Assembly: GCF_011683955.1 (NCBI RefSeq)
Contig: NZ_JAAQPI010000002.1
Location: forward strand, 324,157-388,156
Direction: 5' to 3'
Length of the DNA stretch: 64,000 nt
Source of the DNA: Pseudomaricurvus alkylphenolicus
GTDB lineage: Bacteria > Pseudomonadota > Gammaproteobacteria > Pseudomonadales > Cellvibrionaceae
Shown here piece by piece: positions 22,932-31,354 of the stretch. The position numbers and the translations under genes are program-made. Each line of letters opens with the position of its first letter. Position 1 is the stretch's first letter. The notes below the pieces were generated by a model. It was not told the origin of the DNA. It worked only from the letters and a program-made list of their open reading frames with translations, and did not search any database.

Positions 22932-24131
22932 TCACAACATTTCAATAGCGATGGCGGTGGCTTCGCCGCCACCAATACAAAGGCTGGCAACGCCTCGTTT
23001 TTTGCCCAGGCGCTTAAGAGCATAGATCAGGGTCACGAGAATACGAGCACCCGAAGCGCCGATGGGATGACCCAGCGCACAAGCACCGCCGTTAATGTTC
23101 ACCTTGTCGATATCCAGGTCCAGCCCGCGAATGGCCAACATGGCGACCATGGCAAACGCCTCATTGATTTCAAACAGATCCACATCGTCTTTATGCCAAT
23201 GCAGCTCGTTCAACAGCTTGCGAATGGCAGCGATGGGCGTGATGGTAAATTCGCTGGGGTGCTGGGCGTGGCCTGTGTGACCGCAGATTTTTGCCAGCGG
23301 TTGCAGGTTCAGCTGTCTTGCCCTGGCGGCACTCATCAACAACAGTGCCGCGGCCCCATCAGAAATGGAGCTGGAATTGGCGGCGGTAATGGTGCCGTCT
23401 TTGGCAAAAGCGGGTTTTAAACCGGGAATCTTGTCAGGGCGGGCATTGCCCGGTTGTTCGTCGGTAGTCACGGTGACCTCACCGCGACGACTGCTGAAGG
23501 TGACCGGGACCGTTTCCTCCTCGAACCAGCCTTCTTCGATGGCTTGGTTAGCGCGGCTCAATGACTGCAGAGCGTATTCATCCATCTGCTCACGGGTGAT
23601 GCCTTCAGCATCGGCTTTTTCCTGGGCAAAGGTGCCCATGGCGCGGCCAGTGTAGGCATCCTCGAGTCCATCAACAAACATGTGATCCTTGATTTCGCCA
23701 TGCCCGAGACGCAAGCCATCGCGCGCCTTAGCGATAAAATAGGGGGCTTTCGTCATACTTTCCATACCGCCGGCGATGGCGATATCACAGCTGCCCGCGC
23801 GAATTTGATCGTGGGCCAGCATTGCCGCCTTCATCCCGGAACCACAGACCTTGCTGACGGTGGTGCATCGAGTGGGCAGATCCAGTCCTGCTCCCAGCGC
23901 GGCCTGACGGGCCGGCGCCTGGCCAACCCCGGCATTGAGGACGTTGCCCATCAACACTTCTTCCACCTGGTCCGGCTGCAGGCCGGTCCGCTCAAGCAGG
24001 CTTTTGATGGCCGCAGCCCCCAGCTCTGGTGCAGATTGAGAGGCGAATGCGCCCTGAAAACCGCCCATTGGGGTTCTCGCCGCAGCGACGATAACGACGT
24101 CCTGGTCGCTCAATTGGGTTTCGCTCGTCAT
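22932..24131 (-). CDS. acetyl-CoA C-acyltransferase (thiolase)
   Basis: A 399-residue thiolase. The nucleophile Cys lies in TTVSKVCGSGMKAAM, the His in NEAFAMVAM, and the second Cys/His region in NVNGGACALGHPIGASGARIL and ASLCIGGGEATAIAIEML. It opens with VVIVAAARTPMGGFQGAFAS. It may act as acetoacetyl-CoA or 2-methylacetoacetyl-CoA thiolase. It is the first gene of an operon with an acyl-CoA dehydrogenase and an HSD10-like dehydrogenase. An enoyl-CoA hydratase is missing from the set and must be supplied from elsewhere. Confidence 0.93.
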   Translation of the reverse strand: MTSETQLSDQDVVIVAAARTPMGGFQGAFASQSAPELGAAAIKSLLERTGLQPDQVEEVLMGNVLNAGVGQAPARQAALGAGLDLPTRCTTVSKVCGSGMKAAMLAHDQIRAGSCDIAIAGGMESMTKAPYFIAKARDGLRLGHGEIKDHMFVDGLEDAYTGRAMGTFAQEKADAEGITREQMDEYALQSLSRANQAIEEGWFEEETVPVTFSSRRGEVTVTTDEQPGNARPDKIPGLKPAFAKDGTITAANSSSISDGAAALLLMSAARARQLNLQPLAKICGHTGHAQHPSEFTITPIAAIRKLLNELHWHKDDVDLFEINEAFAMVAMLAIRGLDLDIDKVNINGGACALGHPIGASGARILVTLIYALKRLGKKRGVASLCIGGGEATAIAIEML

Positions 24132-24307
24132 AGATTCGACTCCTTTGTGAAGATGGGAAAGACAATCGCACCATCATAGGTCGATCACCGATTGATCAAC
24201 AGGGCGCGGGACCTCACAAAAACTCACAATTTTTGCCGTCCGTAAGGTCACCGCTCTGACAGAGTGACACTTCGCTCACAAAGGCAGTTGGATTGGCACA
24301 GTTTCGC

Positions 24308-24313
24308 TATAAT
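24308..24313 (+). promoter_or_regulatory. candidate -10 box for the SixA-like gene
   Basis: A perfect TATAAT lies 39 bases before the chosen start codon. No good -35 hexamer is present at 16-18 bases, so strength or dependence on an activator is uncertain. Confidence 0.4.
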
Positions 24314-24351
24314 CAAGAGGTCTGGTGCAACAATGTCACTCAAATCAGGCT

Positions 24352-24849
24352 ATGAAGACTTTGCATATGCTTCGGCACGCAAAATCCAGCTGGGATGATC
24401 CGACGCTGGCGGATGTGGACCGCCCCCTTAACGGCCGTGGGCTCAAAGCCTGCAGTACCATGGCAGGGGCCATGGTGGAGTCCGGCTGCGAATTTCACAA
24501 TATTTTTTGCAGCCCGGCCAAGCGTGCCCGCTCAACCATTGAGAACATCGCCGCGCAATTGACCGGCAGCGATATTCGTTGGCAGATCGACCGGGATCTA
24601 TACACCTTTAGTGATCAGGATCTCCTGCACTGGTGCCACCAGCTGGATGACGATTTGGATCAGGTGATGTTGGTAGGTCACAATCCCGCCATCACCGACT
24701 TTTGTAATCGGCTCAACCGAAATGGTGATTTTGTGGCAAATGTTCCCACCTGTGGATATGTGAGACTGCAGATTGAGAGTGTCTGGTCAGAGCTTGAGGA
24801 TAACGCGGCAAGCCTGGAGTTGCTGTTAACGCCCAAGATGCTGCGCTGA
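24352..24849 (+). CDS. SixA-like phosphohistidine phosphatase
   Basis: A 165-residue histidine phosphatase. The catalytic LRHAKSSWDDP is at residues 6-16, RPLNGRGLKAC follows, SPAKRARSTIENIA carries the second Arg, and VGHNPAITDF supplies the second His. SixA removes phosphate from phosphohistidine in phosphotransfer proteins such as NPr in E. coli; family members vary in substrate. The start at 24352 places RHA at the usual distance from the N-terminus. A GTG at 24325 with AGAGG nearby would add nine residues. It converges on the repeat-protein gene. Confidence 0.85.
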   Translation: MKTLHMLRHAKSSWDDPTLADVDRPLNGRGLKACSTMAGAMVESGCEFHNIFCSPAKRARSTIENIAAQLTGSDIRWQIDRDLYTFSDQDLLHWCHQLDDDLDQVMLVGHNPAITDFCNRLNRNGDFVANVPTCGYVRLQIESVWSELEDNAASLELLLTPKMLR

Positions 24850-24867
24850 ACCTGGTTTACAGAAGAT

Positions 24868-24901
24868 GCCGACAGAGATCGCCTAGTTGATCTCTGTCGG
24901 C
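24868..24901. terminator. hairpin between convergent genes, probable bidirectional terminator
   Basis: GCCGACAGAGATC pairs perfectly over 13 bases with GATCTCTGTCGGC across an 8-base loop. It lies 18 bases after the SixA stop and 50 bases after the repeat-protein stop. No clear U run follows on either strand, so it may act as a transcript-end stabiliser or with Rho. Confidence 0.6.
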
Positions 24902-24950
24902 GGTGGGGAGTTTTCCGGTGATCCCCACACCGCTGGGGTTTTGAGAGACC

Positions 24951-26678
24951 TCAGACAAACATGTCAGTGCTGTCGGCCATTGCACTGCCGCCCAGCAGCC
25001 CCATTTCCTCATAGCATTCTTCGCCGGTGCATTCCTCCAGAGGCTGTTCATCGTAATTTTCTTCCGCGAACATCAGCACACCGGTGTCGTCCATTGCCGT
25101 AGCACTGTCATCACCACCGGCCTGCTCTTCTCCCTCGGAGTTCTCGAACTCGAAAGCCAGCGCGTCATCCACTGGTTCTCCGTCAGGGCCGTAGGTGTAC
25201 TGGTTGCCATCGGCGTCGACCTGATAGCCGGAACCATCTGCGAAGGTGGCGCCATAGGAGCCATCGCTGCTGCTCCAACTGCTGGAGCCGTCCGCATGCC
25301 ATTGGCTGCCATTACCCTGCCCATCACTCCAGGAACCGGATCCGTCAGAGTTCCAGGTACTCATGCTGCCGTCGGCATAGTGGGCTTCACCATTGCCTTC
25401 GGCGTCGCTATAGCCGTAGCTGCCATCGGAGTATGACCAGCTGCTGGAACCATCAGCGTGCCATTCACAGACATTGCCGTCTGCATCACTCCAGGAACCT
25501 GATCCGTCTGCACTCCAGGTACTCACACTGCCATCGGCATAGTGAGCTTCGCCATTGCCCTCAGAGTCGCTGTGGCCGTAACTGCCATCGGTATAGGACC
25601 AACTGCTGGAACCGTCAGCGTGCCATTCGCTGACATTGCCTTCGGCGTCGGTCCAGGAGCCGGAACCATCGGCGTTCCAAGTGGAGACCTCTCCAGTTGC
25701 CGAGGTGTAGCTGCCCCAGCCATCGGGGTGATAGACCTCTATGGAACCATCCGGATAAACGGTCGTCAGTGAACCGTCTTCCTCCTCGAAGACCATCGCC
25801 TCTTCATCGTCGGGAGCTTCATCGTTTGAAGCGTCGTCGTTAGGAACTTCGTTGTACTGAGGTTCCTCATCTGGGGCCTCCCCGACACTGGCCTCCTCAT
25901 CCTGGTCAGGCGCCTCACCAATGGCAGGGTCGTCTTCAGGGGAATCCGGCAGTTCTTCCTCAAAGCTGTTGCCATCCGCATCGGTGTAAGTGTATTGACC
26001 GTCTGCGGTCATGGATTCACTGCTACCGTCGGGGTAAGTGACAGACCAGGAACCATCGGCGTTGTACACCTCTACTGTACCGTCCGGGCTGCTCCAACTG
26101 CCTGAACCATCTGCATTCCAGGTGGATTCGTAACCTTCGGCATCGGTGTAGCTGCCAGAGCCATCCGGATTCTGGACTTCGATAGAGCCATCGGCATAGA
26201 GAATGGTGATAGTGCCGTCTTCATCCTCCAGGACCTCGGCAGAGCCGTAGTAGGGGTCGTGTTCATTGACTTCACTGATGTTGCCGTCGACGTCGGTGAA
26301 GGTATAGATCCCATCGGCACTCATGCTTTCGCTGCTGCCGTCGGCGTAGGTGGCCGTCCAGGAGCCGTCTGCCTCGTAGCTGCCATAGTCACCATTGCCA
26401 TTGCTCCAGTTACCGGAGCCGTCGGCGTTCCAGTGCGCGGAGTTACCAAGGCTGTCCTGGTAGCCACCGGATCCGTCGGCGGCCCAGTAGTAGCTGCTGC
26501 CGTCGGCGTAAGTGGCATGACCGGAGCCGTCGGCATAGTAAGTTGCCGAACTGCCATCGGGGTATTCCCAGTGATTGGTGCCGTCAGCGTTAATGGTTTC
26601 GACACTGCCATCTTCGTGATAAATAACTTCCATGTCAGGGTTTTCTGAGGTTTGTACTTGTTCGTTGATTGCGTTCAT
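24951..26678 (-). CDS. acidic DGS-repeat protein, family not recognised
   Basis: A 575-residue protein made almost wholly of short units around (Y/W)xADGSxxxW or YPDGS, rich in Asp, Gly, Ser, Trp and Tyr and poor in Lys, Arg and Leu. There is no signal peptide or membrane segment. Residues 1-240 form a first repeat block and 240-297 a Glu/Asp/Pro linker. A second block from 298 contains 54-residue tandem units starting at 332, 386 and 440. The last 75 residues are acidic, include CTGEEC, and end STDMFV. An acidic residue followed by hydrophobics at the C-terminus is the kind of ending seen in type I-secreted proteins. Secretion and ion binding are inference. The units resemble MORN-like or other beta-hairpin repeats without matching a family I can name. 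Confidence 0.75.
   Translation of the reverse strand: MNAINEQVQTSENPDMEVIYHEDGSVETINADGTNHWEYPDGSSATYYADGSGHATYADGSSYYWAADGSGGYQDSLGNSAHWNADGSGNWSNGNGDYGSYEADGSWTATYADGSSESMSADGIYTFTDVDGNISEVNEHDPYYGSAEVLEDEDGTITILYADGSIEVQNPDGSGSYTDAEGYESTWNADGSGSWSSPDGTVEVYNADGSWSVTYPDGSSESMTADGQYTYTDADGNSFEEELPDSPEDDPAIGEAPDQDEEASVGEAPDEEPQYNEVPNDDASNDEAPDDEEAMVFEEEDGSLTTVYPDGSIEVYHPDGWGSYTSATGEVSTWNADGSGSWTDAEGNVSEWHADGSSSWSYTDGSYGHSDSEGNGEAHYADGSVSTWSADGSGSWSDADGNVCEWHADGSSSWSYSDGSYGYSDAEGNGEAHYADGSMSTWNSDGSGSWSDGQGNGSQWHADGSSSWSSSDGSYGATFADGSGYQVDADGNQYTYGPDGEPVDDALAFEFENSEGEEQAGGDDSATAMDDTGVLMFAEENYDEQPLEECTGEECYEEMGLLGGSAMADSTDMFV
25227..25685 (-). repeat. 162-bp tandem repeats inside the DGS-repeat gene
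   Basis: Three in-frame copies begin at 25685, 25523 and 25361 (reading down the minus strand). The first two are full length and differ at only a few codons; the third is shortened by an internal loss after about 37 codons. Each copy encodes STW..DGSGSW, EWHADGSSSWS, DGSYG and EAHYADGS. Near-identical DNA copies suggest recent expansion by slippage or recombination. Confidence 0.9.
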
Positions 26679-27017
26679 AACACACCGTCCAATAAGAATA
26701 TTGATAGTTCTTGGGTTGGCTCTCCAACCCTCGTTCTACGCACGTCCACAGCGCCCAGGTTGCTGTCTTCGTGAGATGTGAAGCCTTTGTGTGTCGCCCA
26801 TAAAGATGATTAACACGCCACTCATAATAGCCATGCGCGTTTTGAGAACAACGCAGAAAGATGAAAAATGCGACAGAGTTCAAGCAATACCTCTGTCAAA
26901 TCGGGCGGCAGAGGATAAGCGGTTGCCAGCCCGGGACAGGCGGTTTTCACGGTCTGGATAGGAATGGGGTTGTGAAAAAGGGAAACGCCGTTTCTGTTGA
27001 GAAAAATGTGATTCGGT
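26679..27017 (-). other. intergenic region upstream of the DGS-repeat gene
   Basis: A 339-base gap without a convincing gene. It holds a hairpin GGGTTGG-CTCT-CCAACCC (26713-26730) in the probable leader and a candidate promoter on the minus strand: GAACAA complement TTGTTC at 26846-26851, 16-base spacer, TATTAT at 26824-26829. A GTTCAC-T-GTGAAC dyad (27016-27028) spans the stop codon of the antiporter gene. The remainder shows nothing clear. Confidence 0.5.
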
Positions 27018-29504
27018 TCACTGTGAACGCTGCCGATCTACCCTTTGCACAGCCTCTTCGATTTCCGGATGATCATTACAAATCAGCCGCCAGCGTTCGC
27101 GATGCAACTCATATACTGTACAAGGAGTGATGGCCTCTACCGTGGCGTTGCGAGGTGTACCGTGCAGCAGCGCCGCCTCGCCGAAGAAGTCTCCAGCGTA
27201 GAGTCGTTTTAATTCTGTTGGCGCGTTTTGACGCTCATCAACAATGGCTACTAATCCACGGGCGATCATAAACAACGAGTCGCCGCGATCACCCTGACGA
27301 ATAATTTTTTCGCCCTTAGGCACACTGCGACGGTTAAGGTGTTTGATGATCGCCTGGAATTGGTCGTCAGCCAGGCCGCTAAACAGAGGCACCTTGTTCA
27401 GTAACTCCGTCACGCTGACCTCCAGGTAACGGGTCAGATCCCGACGTGCGATGTTGCGCAATTGTGTCTGCTGTTGTTTTTTGAGAGCTGCAATCACCCC
27501 TTCCGGCAGGATACCGATATTGCCTGCGCGCGCCAGCGCCTCCTGTTCGCTGATAATCAGCAGGCGCTGTCCCAGACGCTCTTGGGCGGCTTCAACAAAC
27601 TCGGGATAACTTTCACTGACCAGCGTAATTTCCGTTTCCATATCGGTCAGCACGTTTTCGTAAATTTGCCTGAGCTGCTCAACGGTGTCGCCACTCACGC
27701 CGCTTTCTTCCGCCAATTCCTCCAAACTCTTGAGTACACTGTTAGCGGTACGGTAACGGGCCCAACTGACATCATAGTCTCGCATCATTTGTCGGGTTAA
27801 CCGGTTTTGAATCGGTGTCGAAACCAGGGGAAAATTCTGCAGTGAACGCAATAACGCCACAAACGCATTGTGCGTCGGAGAGTGCCGGTAATCTGAACCA
27901 GGCAGATGGCCATAGTGTTTGGCGTCGTCGCTTTGCTGCTCCACATTGAAGAAGAGTTCGCGATAAGCCCAGTCTCCTATCAAACCGCGCCGGAAAAACT
28001 CTTCGTAGCGTTTTTTTTCTCGGGCCAGCGTTCGCAAAGACAGAATTCGTCTCGCTTCCTCCTTGGTCATACCAACGCTGAGGGTTTTAATTTCCCGCTG
28101 TAGTTGCTCAATAGACTTTTCCCCATCCGAACGTAACCGCTCCGCAACCCGCCGGGAAAAAAATCCGCCCTGTTCCAGCCGGTCTACGCTGGCCAGGCTC
28201 ATTTGCTTGGCATGCAACCCGCCTTCCTTTTCCGCCAGCTGGTCGGCAAACTCGGGTTTATCCAGGCCCAACCTTCGAACCAGTGTCTCGATGGACAAAC
28301 CCTGCACCAACAGAGAAAACAACACCGCGCCCATGACCACCGCAATCAGCGTGTCTCGCTGACTGAACTCCGGCAGCGAGAGCACAATGGCGACAGCGAT
28401 GGCTCCGCGCAGACCTCCCCAGTACATAACCAGTTGGTAGCTGCGAGAAACCGGCTCGCTGTCGGGTAATCGAGCCAGCTGTGGCACCAGGCCAAAAATA
28501 ACTAGCGCCCGCGACAGCAACATGGCCACAGCCACCAGCGCAATTAGCCCCAGGGAATCCCAATAGGCCAATAGATCAATTTTCATGCCGACCAGCAGAA
28601 AGATCATGGCGTTTGCCAGCCAGGCGGCATAGTCCCAAAAGTCGTGCAGGTAGTGTTCGGTAGAGGGTGAGATTTTGCTGCGACCATAGCTGCCCATTAT
28701 GAGGCCGGCGGCGACCACGGCCATAATACCGCTGACGTGCAGGCCATGTTCAGCAATCAAGAAGGCGAGATAGGCCAGAACCGTCGTAAAGCTAATCTCT
28801 ACTGCGGGCTGCGCGTCAATAGTACCGAGAATCTGGCAGACCAAGAATGCCAGCAACCAGCCAACCAGGATGCCACCAAAAAACACCTTGAGAAATTCGA
28901 TCAGACCACTGCCCACAGTAGCGAGATCAAATTCGCCGGTTAAAGCGATGCCAGTGAGAAGCGTTGCCAGCACTAGAGAGGTAGCATCATTAAACAGGCT
29001 TTCCCCCTCAACCAGGACCGTGAGACGCTCAGGCACCCCCAGCTGCTTGAATAGGGCAATGACGGATACCGGATCGGTGGCGCTGAGAATAGCCCCCAGC
29101 AGCATGCAGATGATAAAGGGAAAATCCGACAGGGCGTAAAAGAGCGAGGCAATGATGGATGTGGATATTAACAGCCCCGGTACGGCCAAGGTCAGCACCG
29201 GCAGGATATTCGCCTGCAGTTGCCGAACCTGCAGATTGTGAGCCGATTCGAAAATCAATGTGGGCAAGAATACAAAAAGTACCAGCTCCGGCGTCAATTC
29301 AAACCCGGCCAACAGATCGAAAAAGGGCGCTACCGGAGCCAGAGCGCTGATCATCATGCCTGCCAACACCAGAGCTATGGTAAAGGGCAGCTTGGGCAGC
29401 TTGTTACCCATCATGGCCGTCAAAGAGGCAGCCAGCATCAGCAGCATAATGCCGGCGACCAGATCCGGCAGGGCAGACACCTCTGTTGTGGTTGCCGTGT
29501 CCAT
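27018..29504 (-). CDS. Na+/H+ antiporter (CPA1 type) with C-terminal cyclic-nucleotide-binding domain
   Basis: An 828-residue protein. About 12 membrane segments fill residues 10-410 and include GAILSATDPVSVIALFKQLGVPERL and EGESLFNDATSLVL, the ion-binding regions of NhaP/NHE-type antiporters. A long cytosolic helical region follows (410-690). The C-terminal domain (about 700-815) is a CRP-like cyclic-nucleotide-binding fold with LFSGLADDQFQAI, IRQGDRGDSLFMIARG and the phosphate-binding cassette FGEAALLHGTPRNATV (from 774), whose Arg is the phosphate-contacting residue. The layout resembles plant SOS1 and sperm NHE exchangers and suggests ion exchange gated by a cyclic nucleotide. Confidence 0.9.
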   Translation of the reverse strand: MDTATTTEVSALPDLVAGIMLLMLAASLTAMMGNKLPKLPFTIALVLAGMMISALAPVAPFFDLLAGFELTPELVLFVFLPTLIFESAHNLQVRQLQANILPVLTLAVPGLLISTSIIASLFYALSDFPFIICMLLGAILSATDPVSVIALFKQLGVPERLTVLVEGESLFNDATSLVLATLLTGIALTGEFDLATVGSGLIEFLKVFFGGILVGWLLAFLVCQILGTIDAQPAVEISFTTVLAYLAFLIAEHGLHVSGIMAVVAAGLIMGSYGRSKISPSTEHYLHDFWDYAAWLANAMIFLLVGMKIDLLAYWDSLGLIALVAVAMLLSRALVIFGLVPQLARLPDSEPVSRSYQLVMYWGGLRGAIAVAIVLSLPEFSQRDTLIAVVMGAVLFSLLVQGLSIETLVRRLGLDKPEFADQLAEKEGGLHAKQMSLASVDRLEQGGFFSRRVAERLRSDGEKSIEQLQREIKTLSVGMTKEEARRILSLRTLAREKKRYEEFFRRGLIGDWAYRELFFNVEQQSDDAKHYGHLPGSDYRHSPTHNAFVALLRSLQNFPLVSTPIQNRLTRQMMRDYDVSWARYRTANSVLKSLEELAEESGVSGDTVEQLRQIYENVLTDMETEITLVSESYPEFVEAAQERLGQRLLIISEQEALARAGNIGILPEGVIAALKKQQQTQLRNIARRDLTRYLEVSVTELLNKVPLFSGLADDQFQAIIKHLNRRSVPKGEKIIRQGDRGDSLFMIARGLVAIVDERQNAPTELKRLYAGDFFGEAALLHGTPRNATVEAITPCTVYELHRERWRLICNDHPEIEEAVQRVDRQRSQ

Positions 29505-29653
29505 AGGGGCAATTCCCGCGCTAGTACCACTTGTTCCAAGTTATGAGTATGGCAGGCGTTTAAGGGATTCGCCGAAAATTGACCTGGGTACCATAGGTCT
29601 CAATATTTCATTGACTTGGGAACGCCTAAGAATTGGGCTCTGATCCGTACACC

Positions 29654-31354
29654 TCAAGCCAACGTCTGAAGCACCTGCGGCTGAGAGGAATTCAACTGAT
29701 CCAACGACTGGGGTTTGGCGTAGAAATAGCCTTGCACTTTCAAGTCTCGATGTCCGACATTCTGTAGCAATCGATCCTGTTGGGCGTTCTCCACACCCTC
29801 GACCACGGTGACAACCCCAAGCTTGCTGGTGAGGGCAAGAATCGCCTCCAGGGTGATGCGTTTCTTGTCAGTATTTTCAATATCTGTGGTGATGCCACGA
29901 TCGATCTTGATGTAGTCCGGGTCCACTTCGTTCAGAAATTCGAAGGTGGCATAACCTGCGCCGAAGTCGTCGAGGGCAAGCAGAAAACCGCATTGCTTCA
30001 GATATTGTATACGTCGTCGTACTTGCGCATCCGCGAAGTTGAAATGATCTGTCTCAACCAGCTCCAGCAGGATTCGCCTTCTGGCGATGCCACACTCATC
30101 AAGACTCTCGCACAGGTAATCTATCAATCCCTCATCCAGCGCTTGAGCCACATTGAGGTTGAGCGAGAAGATGATGTTATTGTCATGGGTTTCCAGGGCC
30201 AATACGGCTTCGATCAAACGATCCACGATCAGCAGACTGAGCTTGTGCAGGCAAGCAAAGGTCTCCGCCAGTCTGATAATCTGCTGTGGAGAAACGAAGC
30301 CGAGTTTCGGGTGCCTCCAGCGCAGTAACAGCTCCAAAACCTCCCAGCACCCACTTTGCAGAGCAATGATGGGTTGCCCCACCAGATATATCTGTTTGTC
30401 TTCAATCGCCGCTATAAGATCCTGCAGAAGCTGGAATTCCACTTCATTGGTGGCAGCGAGCTGGTCGCGATAAAAGGTCAAGCTGGTTTTTCGTTTGGAT
30501 CGGGATTGCCGCAGTGCGATTTCCGCCTGACGTAATAGTTCCGCAGAGTCAAAAGCGTCTCCGGGAAAAAGCGCGGCCCCAAGACTCAGCGTGGCAGCAG
30601 TTGCGCCCGGTTCGGGTTGTTCGATTGAGCGTAGTGATTGACAGAGCCTCTCCGCCACCTCATGAGCTTGCTCCAGTTGTCGGAAAGGACCGGCCAGAAA
30701 AGCAAACTCATCGCTGCCGAGACGATAGACATCTCCTGGACTGTCAACGTTGGCGCGCAGTGTTTGAGATATTTTTTTGAGAAGTTGGTTCGCCCCCTGA
30801 TGCCCGATTCGTTCGTTGACGGACTTAAAATCATCAACATTCGCCAATAACAGCATATGAATGTCGTCAGCCCGGTTGGCAAAATCAATCCGCATGTCCA
30901 AATCCCGCCGAAACATTCGACGATTGCCAAGACCGGTGAGCTCGTCAAAAAAAGCCAGCTGCCGATACTGCTGTTTCAAGGATTCATTTTCTGTAACATC
31001 CTCACTGAGTGACAGGTAGAGGGTCACCTTTCCGCCTTCATCTCTGATAGGCGCGATGGATTGCTGCGACCAATAACCGGAACCATCCTTACGCTTGTTG
31101 AGGACACGCCCCCTCCAGCGGCGCCCTCCTGAAATGGTGTGCCAAAGGTCGCGATAAAATTTTGGCGGCATTCTTCCCGAGTTAAGTAACCGGGGTGTCT
31201 TTCCCAGTACTTCATTGGCTCGATAACCGGTAATTTCGCAGAAGCGAGGGTTGACGTATTTAATTGTGCCGTGAACATCAGTGAGAATAATGGCGCTACC
31301 CGCGGCATTGATCACTTGCTTGAGCAGAAATTCATCAATGCTGAGATCCTTCAT
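29654..31354 (-). CDS. PAS-GGDEF-EAL protein with altered signature motifs
   Basis: About 566 residues. A PAS domain (about 10-120) has INAAGSAIILTDVHGTIKYVN, then a GGDEF domain (130-290) and an EAL domain (310-560). The GGDEF signature is GSDEF (215-219 counting from an ATG six bases upstream), so cyclase activity is doubtful. The EAL signature is ELL (343-345), but the metal and catalytic residues look kept: NLNVAQ, LELVETD, DDFGAGYATFEFL, IKIDR and VVEGVE. It is probably a c-di-GMP phosphodiesterase. I chose the ATG at 31354 because AGGGAG lies 7 bases upstream. It follows the chemoreceptor by 23 bases. Confidence 0.9.
   Translation of the reverse strand: MKDLSIDEFLLKQVINAAGSAIILTDVHGTIKYVNPRFCEITGYRANEVLGKTPRLLNSGRMPPKFYRDLWHTISGGRRWRGRVLNKRKDGSGYWSQQSIAPIRDEGGKVTLYLSLSEDVTENESLKQQYRQLAFFDELTGLGNRRMFRRDLDMRIDFANRADDIHMLLLANVDDFKSVNERIGHQGANQLLKKISQTLRANVDSPGDVYRLGSDEFAFLAGPFRQLEQAHEVAERLCQSLRSIEQPEPGATAATLSLGAALFPGDAFDSAELLRQAEIALRQSRSKRKTSLTFYRDQLAATNEVEFQLLQDLIAAIEDKQIYLVGQPIIALQSGCWEVLELLLRWRHPKLGFVSPQQIIRLAETFACLHKLSLLIVDRLIEAVLALETHDNNIIFSLNLNVAQALDEGLIDYLCESLDECGIARRRILLELVETDHFNFADAQVRRRIQYLKQCGFLLALDDFGAGYATFEFLNEVDPDYIKIDRGITTDIENTDKKRITLEAILALTSKLGVVTVVEGVENAQQDRLLQNVGHRDLKVQGYFYAKPQSLDQLNSSQPQVLQTLA

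Follow-up and report, generated by a model that had tools for sequence, protein, structure and literature searches.

The 64,000-nucleotide window of Pseudomaricurvus alkylphenolicus DNA analysed here (contig NZ_JAAQPI010000002.1, positions 324,157 to 388,156 of the forward strand) contains a single 575-codon open reading frame (ORF) that fills positions 24951–26678 on the minus strand; the plus strand of this interval is interrupted by stops. By sequence, its product is a bacterial member of Tcp10_C, the repeat family of the TCP or G-box domain of CPAP and SAS-4. The protein contains no lysine and no arginine, has an isoelectric point of 4.05 and includes 131 Asp and Glu residues. Among 31 other ORFs, hand-picked out of 45 listed, Lys and Arg make up at least 5.8% of residues (mean 10.9%). 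There are 39 DG and 27 DGS motifs, with a DG-to-DG spacing of 9 or a multiple of 9 in 34 of 38 cases, and self-identity peaks at lags of 9, 18, 27, 36, 45 and 54 residues. A turn-like motif, [NYHSFWTDQ][APS][DE]G, occurs 36 times.

Much of what the first-pass annotation described is borne out by these counts, including the DGS hairpin-like repeat and the strongly acidic character, the absence of Lys and Arg having been overlooked. The 54-residue copies that it placed at residues 332, 386 and 440 are present on the minus strand as residues 332–385 (25524–25685), 386–439 (25362–25523) and, for the partial third copy, 440–480 (25239–25361). The larger duplication is also found, with residues 146–241 aligning to the N-terminal block at 55% identity and to the C-terminal block at 58%. 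The sequences CTGEEC near the end and STDMFV at the terminus are as described, and the lack of a signal peptide holds in a crude test, the first 40 residues having no run of eight hydrophobic residues. The claim that repeats occupy nearly the whole protein was overstated; sheet is predicted for about 421 of the 575 residues.

AlphaFold2 (AF2) models divide the protein into three predicted β-meander domains, all encoded on the minus strand. Domain 1 (residues 16–136; 26271–26633) has 14 predicted strands, with a predicted local distance difference test score (pLDDT) of 71–93 up to residue 130. Domain 2 (residues 148–241; 25956–26237) has 11 predicted strands and is the part nearest to a 114-residue paralogue in the same genome (47% identity over 68 residues) and to L016, a relative described below (75%). 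It is followed by an acidic linker of EAPD/DDEE composition (residues 242–294; 25797–25955) that is predicted to be disordered (pLDDT <50 at 244–283 and 285–289). Domain 3 (residues 295–500; 25179–25796), modelled with a 14-row alignment at a pLDDT of 95.8, has 23 predicted strands, and its best structural match is the CPAP TCP domain. The acidic C-terminal tail (residues 505–575; 24954–25166) is predicted to be disordered and is a candidate export signal. The pLDDT is below 50 over most of the protein outside the predicted sheets.

In these models each nine-residue unit would supply one four-residue β-strand and a five-residue turn, typically (Y/D/N)(A/P)DGS, so that the chain would run up and down as a single-layer antiparallel sheet, each face exposed to solvent. 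The predicted fold is thus three such strips, of 14, 11 and 23 strands, joined by flexible acidic linkers. From the usual strand spacing, the domain 3 strip would be about 11 nm long.

The first-pass annotation knew of no named family with this pattern, a view overturned by the match to Pfam Tcp10_C (PF07202), which covers six stretches with an E-value of 8.5e-26 and 89.7 bits against a gathering cut-off of 36 bits. Three shuffled versions of the protein, one shuffled fully and two with DG, or DGS as well, fixed in place, matched no Pfam family up to E 10, and the Tcp10_C match is therefore not produced by DG spacing alone. Together with the rarity of PF07202 across genomes, the shuffles led us to reject a chance or low-complexity match. 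Single Tcp10_C stretches score only 24–27 bits in the genome search, so the family score adds up over repeats. Run against the PDB, phmmer returned five CPAP or SAS-4 TCP sequences (E 1.3e-6 to 7e-6), and no other sequence fell below 0.001. The surface-protein motifs Rib/aRib and MiiA likewise are short and contain DG; their matches here are partial (15–60 residues) and fall below Tcp10_C, with aRib reaching 26.9 bits (cut-off 27) and NCBIfam MiiA 22.1 bits (cut-off 24). Weak tblastn similarity (25–32%) extends to the DG repeats of a Streptomyces AAWKG family protein beside type VII genes, a different secretion context. The domain has been annotated in bacteria before, a comparative Legionella study having assigned a T-complex protein 10 motif to one protein of unknown function (PMC4256840).

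The structural comparisons point in the same direction. CPAP TCP structures fill the top six rows in two comparisons, and MORN-repeat proteins (Morn1 of Trypanosoma, Toxoplasma and Plasmodium) and engineered OspA sheets have Z-scores below CPAP. The MORN repeat unit is longer; the family does not match the window protein at E-values up to 10, and one relative, L098, passes its cut-off (28.6 versus 22.5 bits). Likeness to CPAP also includes PDG-type turns and the one-layer antiparallel meander with both faces exposed (PMC3776556), which is predicted for the window protein. CPAP differs in having a single such domain, of about 20 strands, within an intracellular protein, whereas the window protein is bacterial and probably exported, with 48 predicted strands in three domains and neither Lys nor Arg.

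The β-solenoid suggested previously is not supported by these antiparallel models or by their best structural matches. A related alternative is a Ca2+-binding β-roll of the RTX type. Nine-residue Asp/Gly-rich repeats, an acidic composition and an end resembling that of substrates of type I secretion systems (T1SS) would suit such a fold, and serralysin-type RTX proteins, secreted through PrtD/AprD, share both the nine-residue repeats and a C-terminus of Asp followed by three hydrophobic residues (PMC2642768). However, the window protein contains neither GGxGxD nor GGxGxDxUx (both also absent from P2, L016, L017 and L018), no RTX family appears among its Pfam matches to E 10, and the models are meanders rather than parallel rolls. 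We rejected the solenoid or RTX fold on these grounds, and a β-roll is very improbable.

The 54-residue copies had been thought to be recently expanded, but their synonymous divergence (pS) is high and their nonsynonymous divergence (pN) low: pS 0.746 and pN 0.077 for copies 332 and 386, 0.598 and 0.219 for 386 and 440, and 0.718 and 0.208 for 332 and 440. The copies are therefore old and under purifying selection. Across three domains compared with L016, pN/pS is 0.24–0.38 (pS 0.77–0.89), and the ORF therefore looks like a real, selected gene. Within L016, domain copies 282 and 388 are recent (pS 0.16–0.19, pN 0–0.004); copy 150 differs from them at pS 0.44–0.51, and the remaining compared pairs lie at 0.61–0.91.

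Relatives are scarce. The 114-residue paralogue (L002, 1453–1797, minus strand) contains Lys and Arg, scores 36.2 bits for Tcp10_C (cut-off 36) and is perhaps a compact form of the repeat domain. At E 0.001 the 575-residue protein has no match in five other genomes of the genus, and 2 of 100 family genomes match, its own included, the other being weak. PF07202 itself matches 3 of 369 genomes of the class and none of 14 control genomes; all three matches, including that in the source genome, fall below the cut-off because this search scores stretches singly. A domain profile finds matches in 16 of 398 genomes of the phylum, again including its own, and one of these, G542, seems to be the L018 genome. 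Scanning contigs with the whole protein gave no relatives; a domain alignment instead recovered L016–L020, of which L019 and L020 were excluded as weak, and G047 was also weak and not used. Alignments of long repeats made with MAFFT can slip by whole units.

L016, from a metagenome-assembled genome (MAG) labelled Neptuniibacter, is a 927-residue protein with the same order of parts as the window protein plus extra domain copies, and it also contains no Lys or Arg. L017 comes from an Alteromonadaceae MAG (1622 residues) and L018/L050 from a Magnetococcales MAG (2880 residues, more than 220 DG units). All three pass the Tcp10_C cut-off, L016 with 84.4 bits; L016 also exceeds the cut-offs for aRib, SH3_15, Rib and MiiA. 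Six of seven further proteins checked against Pfam pass for Tcp10_C (L049, L088, L092, L096, L098 and L099), and L089 has no Pfam match. Outside the window's class, L088, L089, L090 and L095 encode Arg-rich DG-repeat proteins that lie, by eye, near chemoreceptor, tyrosine recombinase or other genes. Judged by eye, the window protein, L016 and L017 have mutually unrelated neighbours; the gene is therefore patchy in its occurrence, and it may have moved horizontally.

In the window, the upstream neighbour is a Na+/H+ exchanger with a cyclic nucleotide-binding domain (27018–29504, minus strand), separated from the 575-codon gene by 339 bases, and downstream lies a histidine phosphatase-superfamily gene on the plus strand (24325–24849). 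The five other genomes of the genus hold no close counterpart of the antiporter (best 34%), and synteny is therefore uninformative. A possible terminator, a 13-bp inverted repeat with a weak T tail, follows the stop codon (24868–24901, minus strand); one such site against 1.8 expected in shuffles makes it weak. Rfam gives no gathering-score match in 24000–30000. A phage origin was rejected: tblastn of a phage collection gave no match, and one weak viral contig (L021, 31 residues) and two weak PHROG matches were seen. The source genome measures 8.88 Mb, compared with 4.0–5.7 Mb in the five other genomes of the genus.

The last four residues of the window protein, Asp-Met-Phe-Val (24954–24965, minus strand), fit the Asp plus three hydrophobic residues described as a C-terminal feature of AprA-type substrates (PMC2642768). 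L016 ends in DILI, though the remaining tails barely align and CTGEEC is absent from that of L016. The source genome encodes a PrtD-type ABC transporter (TIGR01842, 776.9 bits, cut-off 510.15) on a different contig (C69, from 308531), unlinked to the 575-codon gene, beside an HlyD gene (380.9 bits, cut-off 208.65) and, by eye, a TolC-like gene. It also encodes an LssB-type T1SS transporter (1013.4 bits, cut-off 693.1) adjoining a giant protein. That protein (L051, 1–5031) is an acidic repeat protein, Calx-β-like by eye. The secretion idea of the first-pass annotation thus gains indirect support from the shared Asp-hydrophobic end, the presence of T1SS genes, whose absence that annotation had named as a refutation, and the Lys/Arg-free composition; the lack of RTX repeats goes against it.

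A second kind of export locus emerged from the 20 loci that we read (the window, L002, L016, L017, L049, L050 and L088–L101). In six of these (L049, L050, L096, L097, L098 and L100) the repeat protein adjoins an M50-HlyD gene and some of GAF-HlyD, HlyD and TolC. Family searches covered such genes in L049, L050, L096 and L098, and those in L097, L100 and the others were identified by end sequences only; the L049 M50-HlyD protein has no Pfam match and scores 187.9 bits in NCBIfam, below the cut-off of 300. The proteins of L017, L049, L050, L096 and L097 share an N-terminal LEDRIAP followed by IGG, and four of these five adjoin M50-HlyD export genes, making this N-terminus a candidate export signal. 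The matches listed from searches of open-access literature contained no mention of the LEDRIAP motif or of an M50-HlyD export locus, and no account of this bacterial protein family.

Export of the window protein by such an M50-HlyD/GAF-HlyD/TolC system, in place of a type I ABC exporter, would not require RTX repeats, and the source genome has one such locus on contig C15 (L065, 5884–19893). By eye this comprises M50-HlyD, GAF-HlyD, HlyD, TolC-like and SapC-like genes, a 670-residue gene and a giant protein. However, the C15 locus adjoins this different giant protein and the SapC-like gene, and the window protein lacks LEDRIAP. An M50-HlyD homologue occurs in 58 of 369 genomes of the class, its own included (E 1e-10), a base rate at which we rejected the locus as proof of export. 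This route seems improbable for the window protein.

Composition separates the relatives along the same lines. Among 18 proteins tabled, Lys plus Arg in the repeat span amounts to 0, 0, 0.2, 0.3 and 1.6% in five exporter-linked proteins and to 1.9–8.0% in ten without exporter or motif; it is zero in the window protein, L016 and L017. Complete separation of five from ten would occur by chance once in 3003 for independent proteins; these are not independent, and two pairs among the ten share 72–83% identity. L100 (a 138-residue frame at a contig end) and L101 (a weak match, a giant protein adjoining an LssB-like gene) were omitted. L088, L091, L092, L093, L097, L098, L099 and L100 lie near a contig end, which weakens a score of 'no exporter nearby' wherever one of them received it, and L091, L093, L097 and L098 are incomplete. 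The split provides moderate evidence that the window protein belongs to the exported kind.

This comparison bears on whether the protein might instead remain inside the cell as a scaffold, its sheets binding partner peptides along an edge and organising a complex as CPAP does. In the CPAP TCP domain, which belongs to the same fold family, one edge of the sheet is the binding site of a proline-rich peptide (PMC3776556). No signal peptide is visible in the window protein, RTX repeats are absent from it, and several Arg-rich relatives lie near chemoreceptor, recombinase and other cytosolic-looking genes without exporters, as judged by eye. Against a scaffold, the Lys/Arg-free composition groups the window protein with the exporter-linked relatives, and the Asp plus three hydrophobic end is common to L016 despite an otherwise different tail. 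We consider a scaffold rather unlikely.

The explanation that we prefer, to which we give an even chance, is that the protein is a Tcp10_C-family meander rod exported by a type I system through its C-terminus and folding outside the cell as a charged rod; type I is the most likely route on present evidence. The protein would be translated without a Sec signal, its chain kept unfolded by charge repulsion. The disordered acidic C-terminus with its Asp-Met-Phe-Val end would be recognised by a type I system, and the exported protein would then fold into highly charged strips or a rod on the cell surface or within the matrix. The strips might serve as spacers or as rods of the matrix, perhaps with divalent cations bound to them; this extracellular role, whether structural, as a spacer or in cation binding, is the weakest part of the proposal.

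Several observations weigh against this explanation. The independent E-value of the best single stretch in the PDB search is only 0.002, which makes that match a sum over repeats, and the CPAP/SAS-4 similarity (whole-sequence E 1.3e-6) fits descent and convergence of short repeats alike. TM-scores against CPAP are modest (TMt 0.29–0.65), and the first row of the whole-model Foldseek search is an Rhs protein (E 1.2e-10), but with a TMt of 0.06 and a root-mean-square deviation of 40.5. The C-terminal motif has only four residues and could be chance, and the need for it in secretion is disputed (PMC2642768). It ends none of the five tabled exporter-linked relatives, of which four begin with LEDRIAP (the fifth, L098, is cut at the N-terminus), a motif absent from both the window protein and L016. 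No exporter gene is seen in the window, and the L016 genome, a perhaps incomplete MAG, has no PrtD-type transporter above cut-off (best 369 bits, LssB-like by eye). Nearly all type I substrates are described as having RTX repeats, with HasA perhaps the sole exception (PMC6891781), and the window protein has none. The Lys/Arg split may track descent and not location.

More broadly, we suggest tentatively, at somewhat less than even odds, that bacteria export long, unsupported one-layer β-sheet tapes free of Lys and Arg, reusing the CPAP sheet fold as an extracellular structural polymer in one chain. Two routes would serve them, one marked by a C-terminal Asp and three hydrophobic residues and the other by LEDRIAP at the N-terminus together with an M50-HlyD/TolC system that is not of the ABC type. 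Those who described the CPAP structure in 2013 considered its TCP domain, to their knowledge, the sole natural case of a protein that is only a freestanding meander (PMC3776556). If the suggestion is right, far longer bacterial versions without Lys or Arg would make freestanding sheets a general building material and would offer soluble amyloid-like models of known length. The M50-HlyD/GAF-HlyD/TolC locus would also gain a candidate class of substrates, and the Lys/Arg rule yields a testable prediction of which members are exported.
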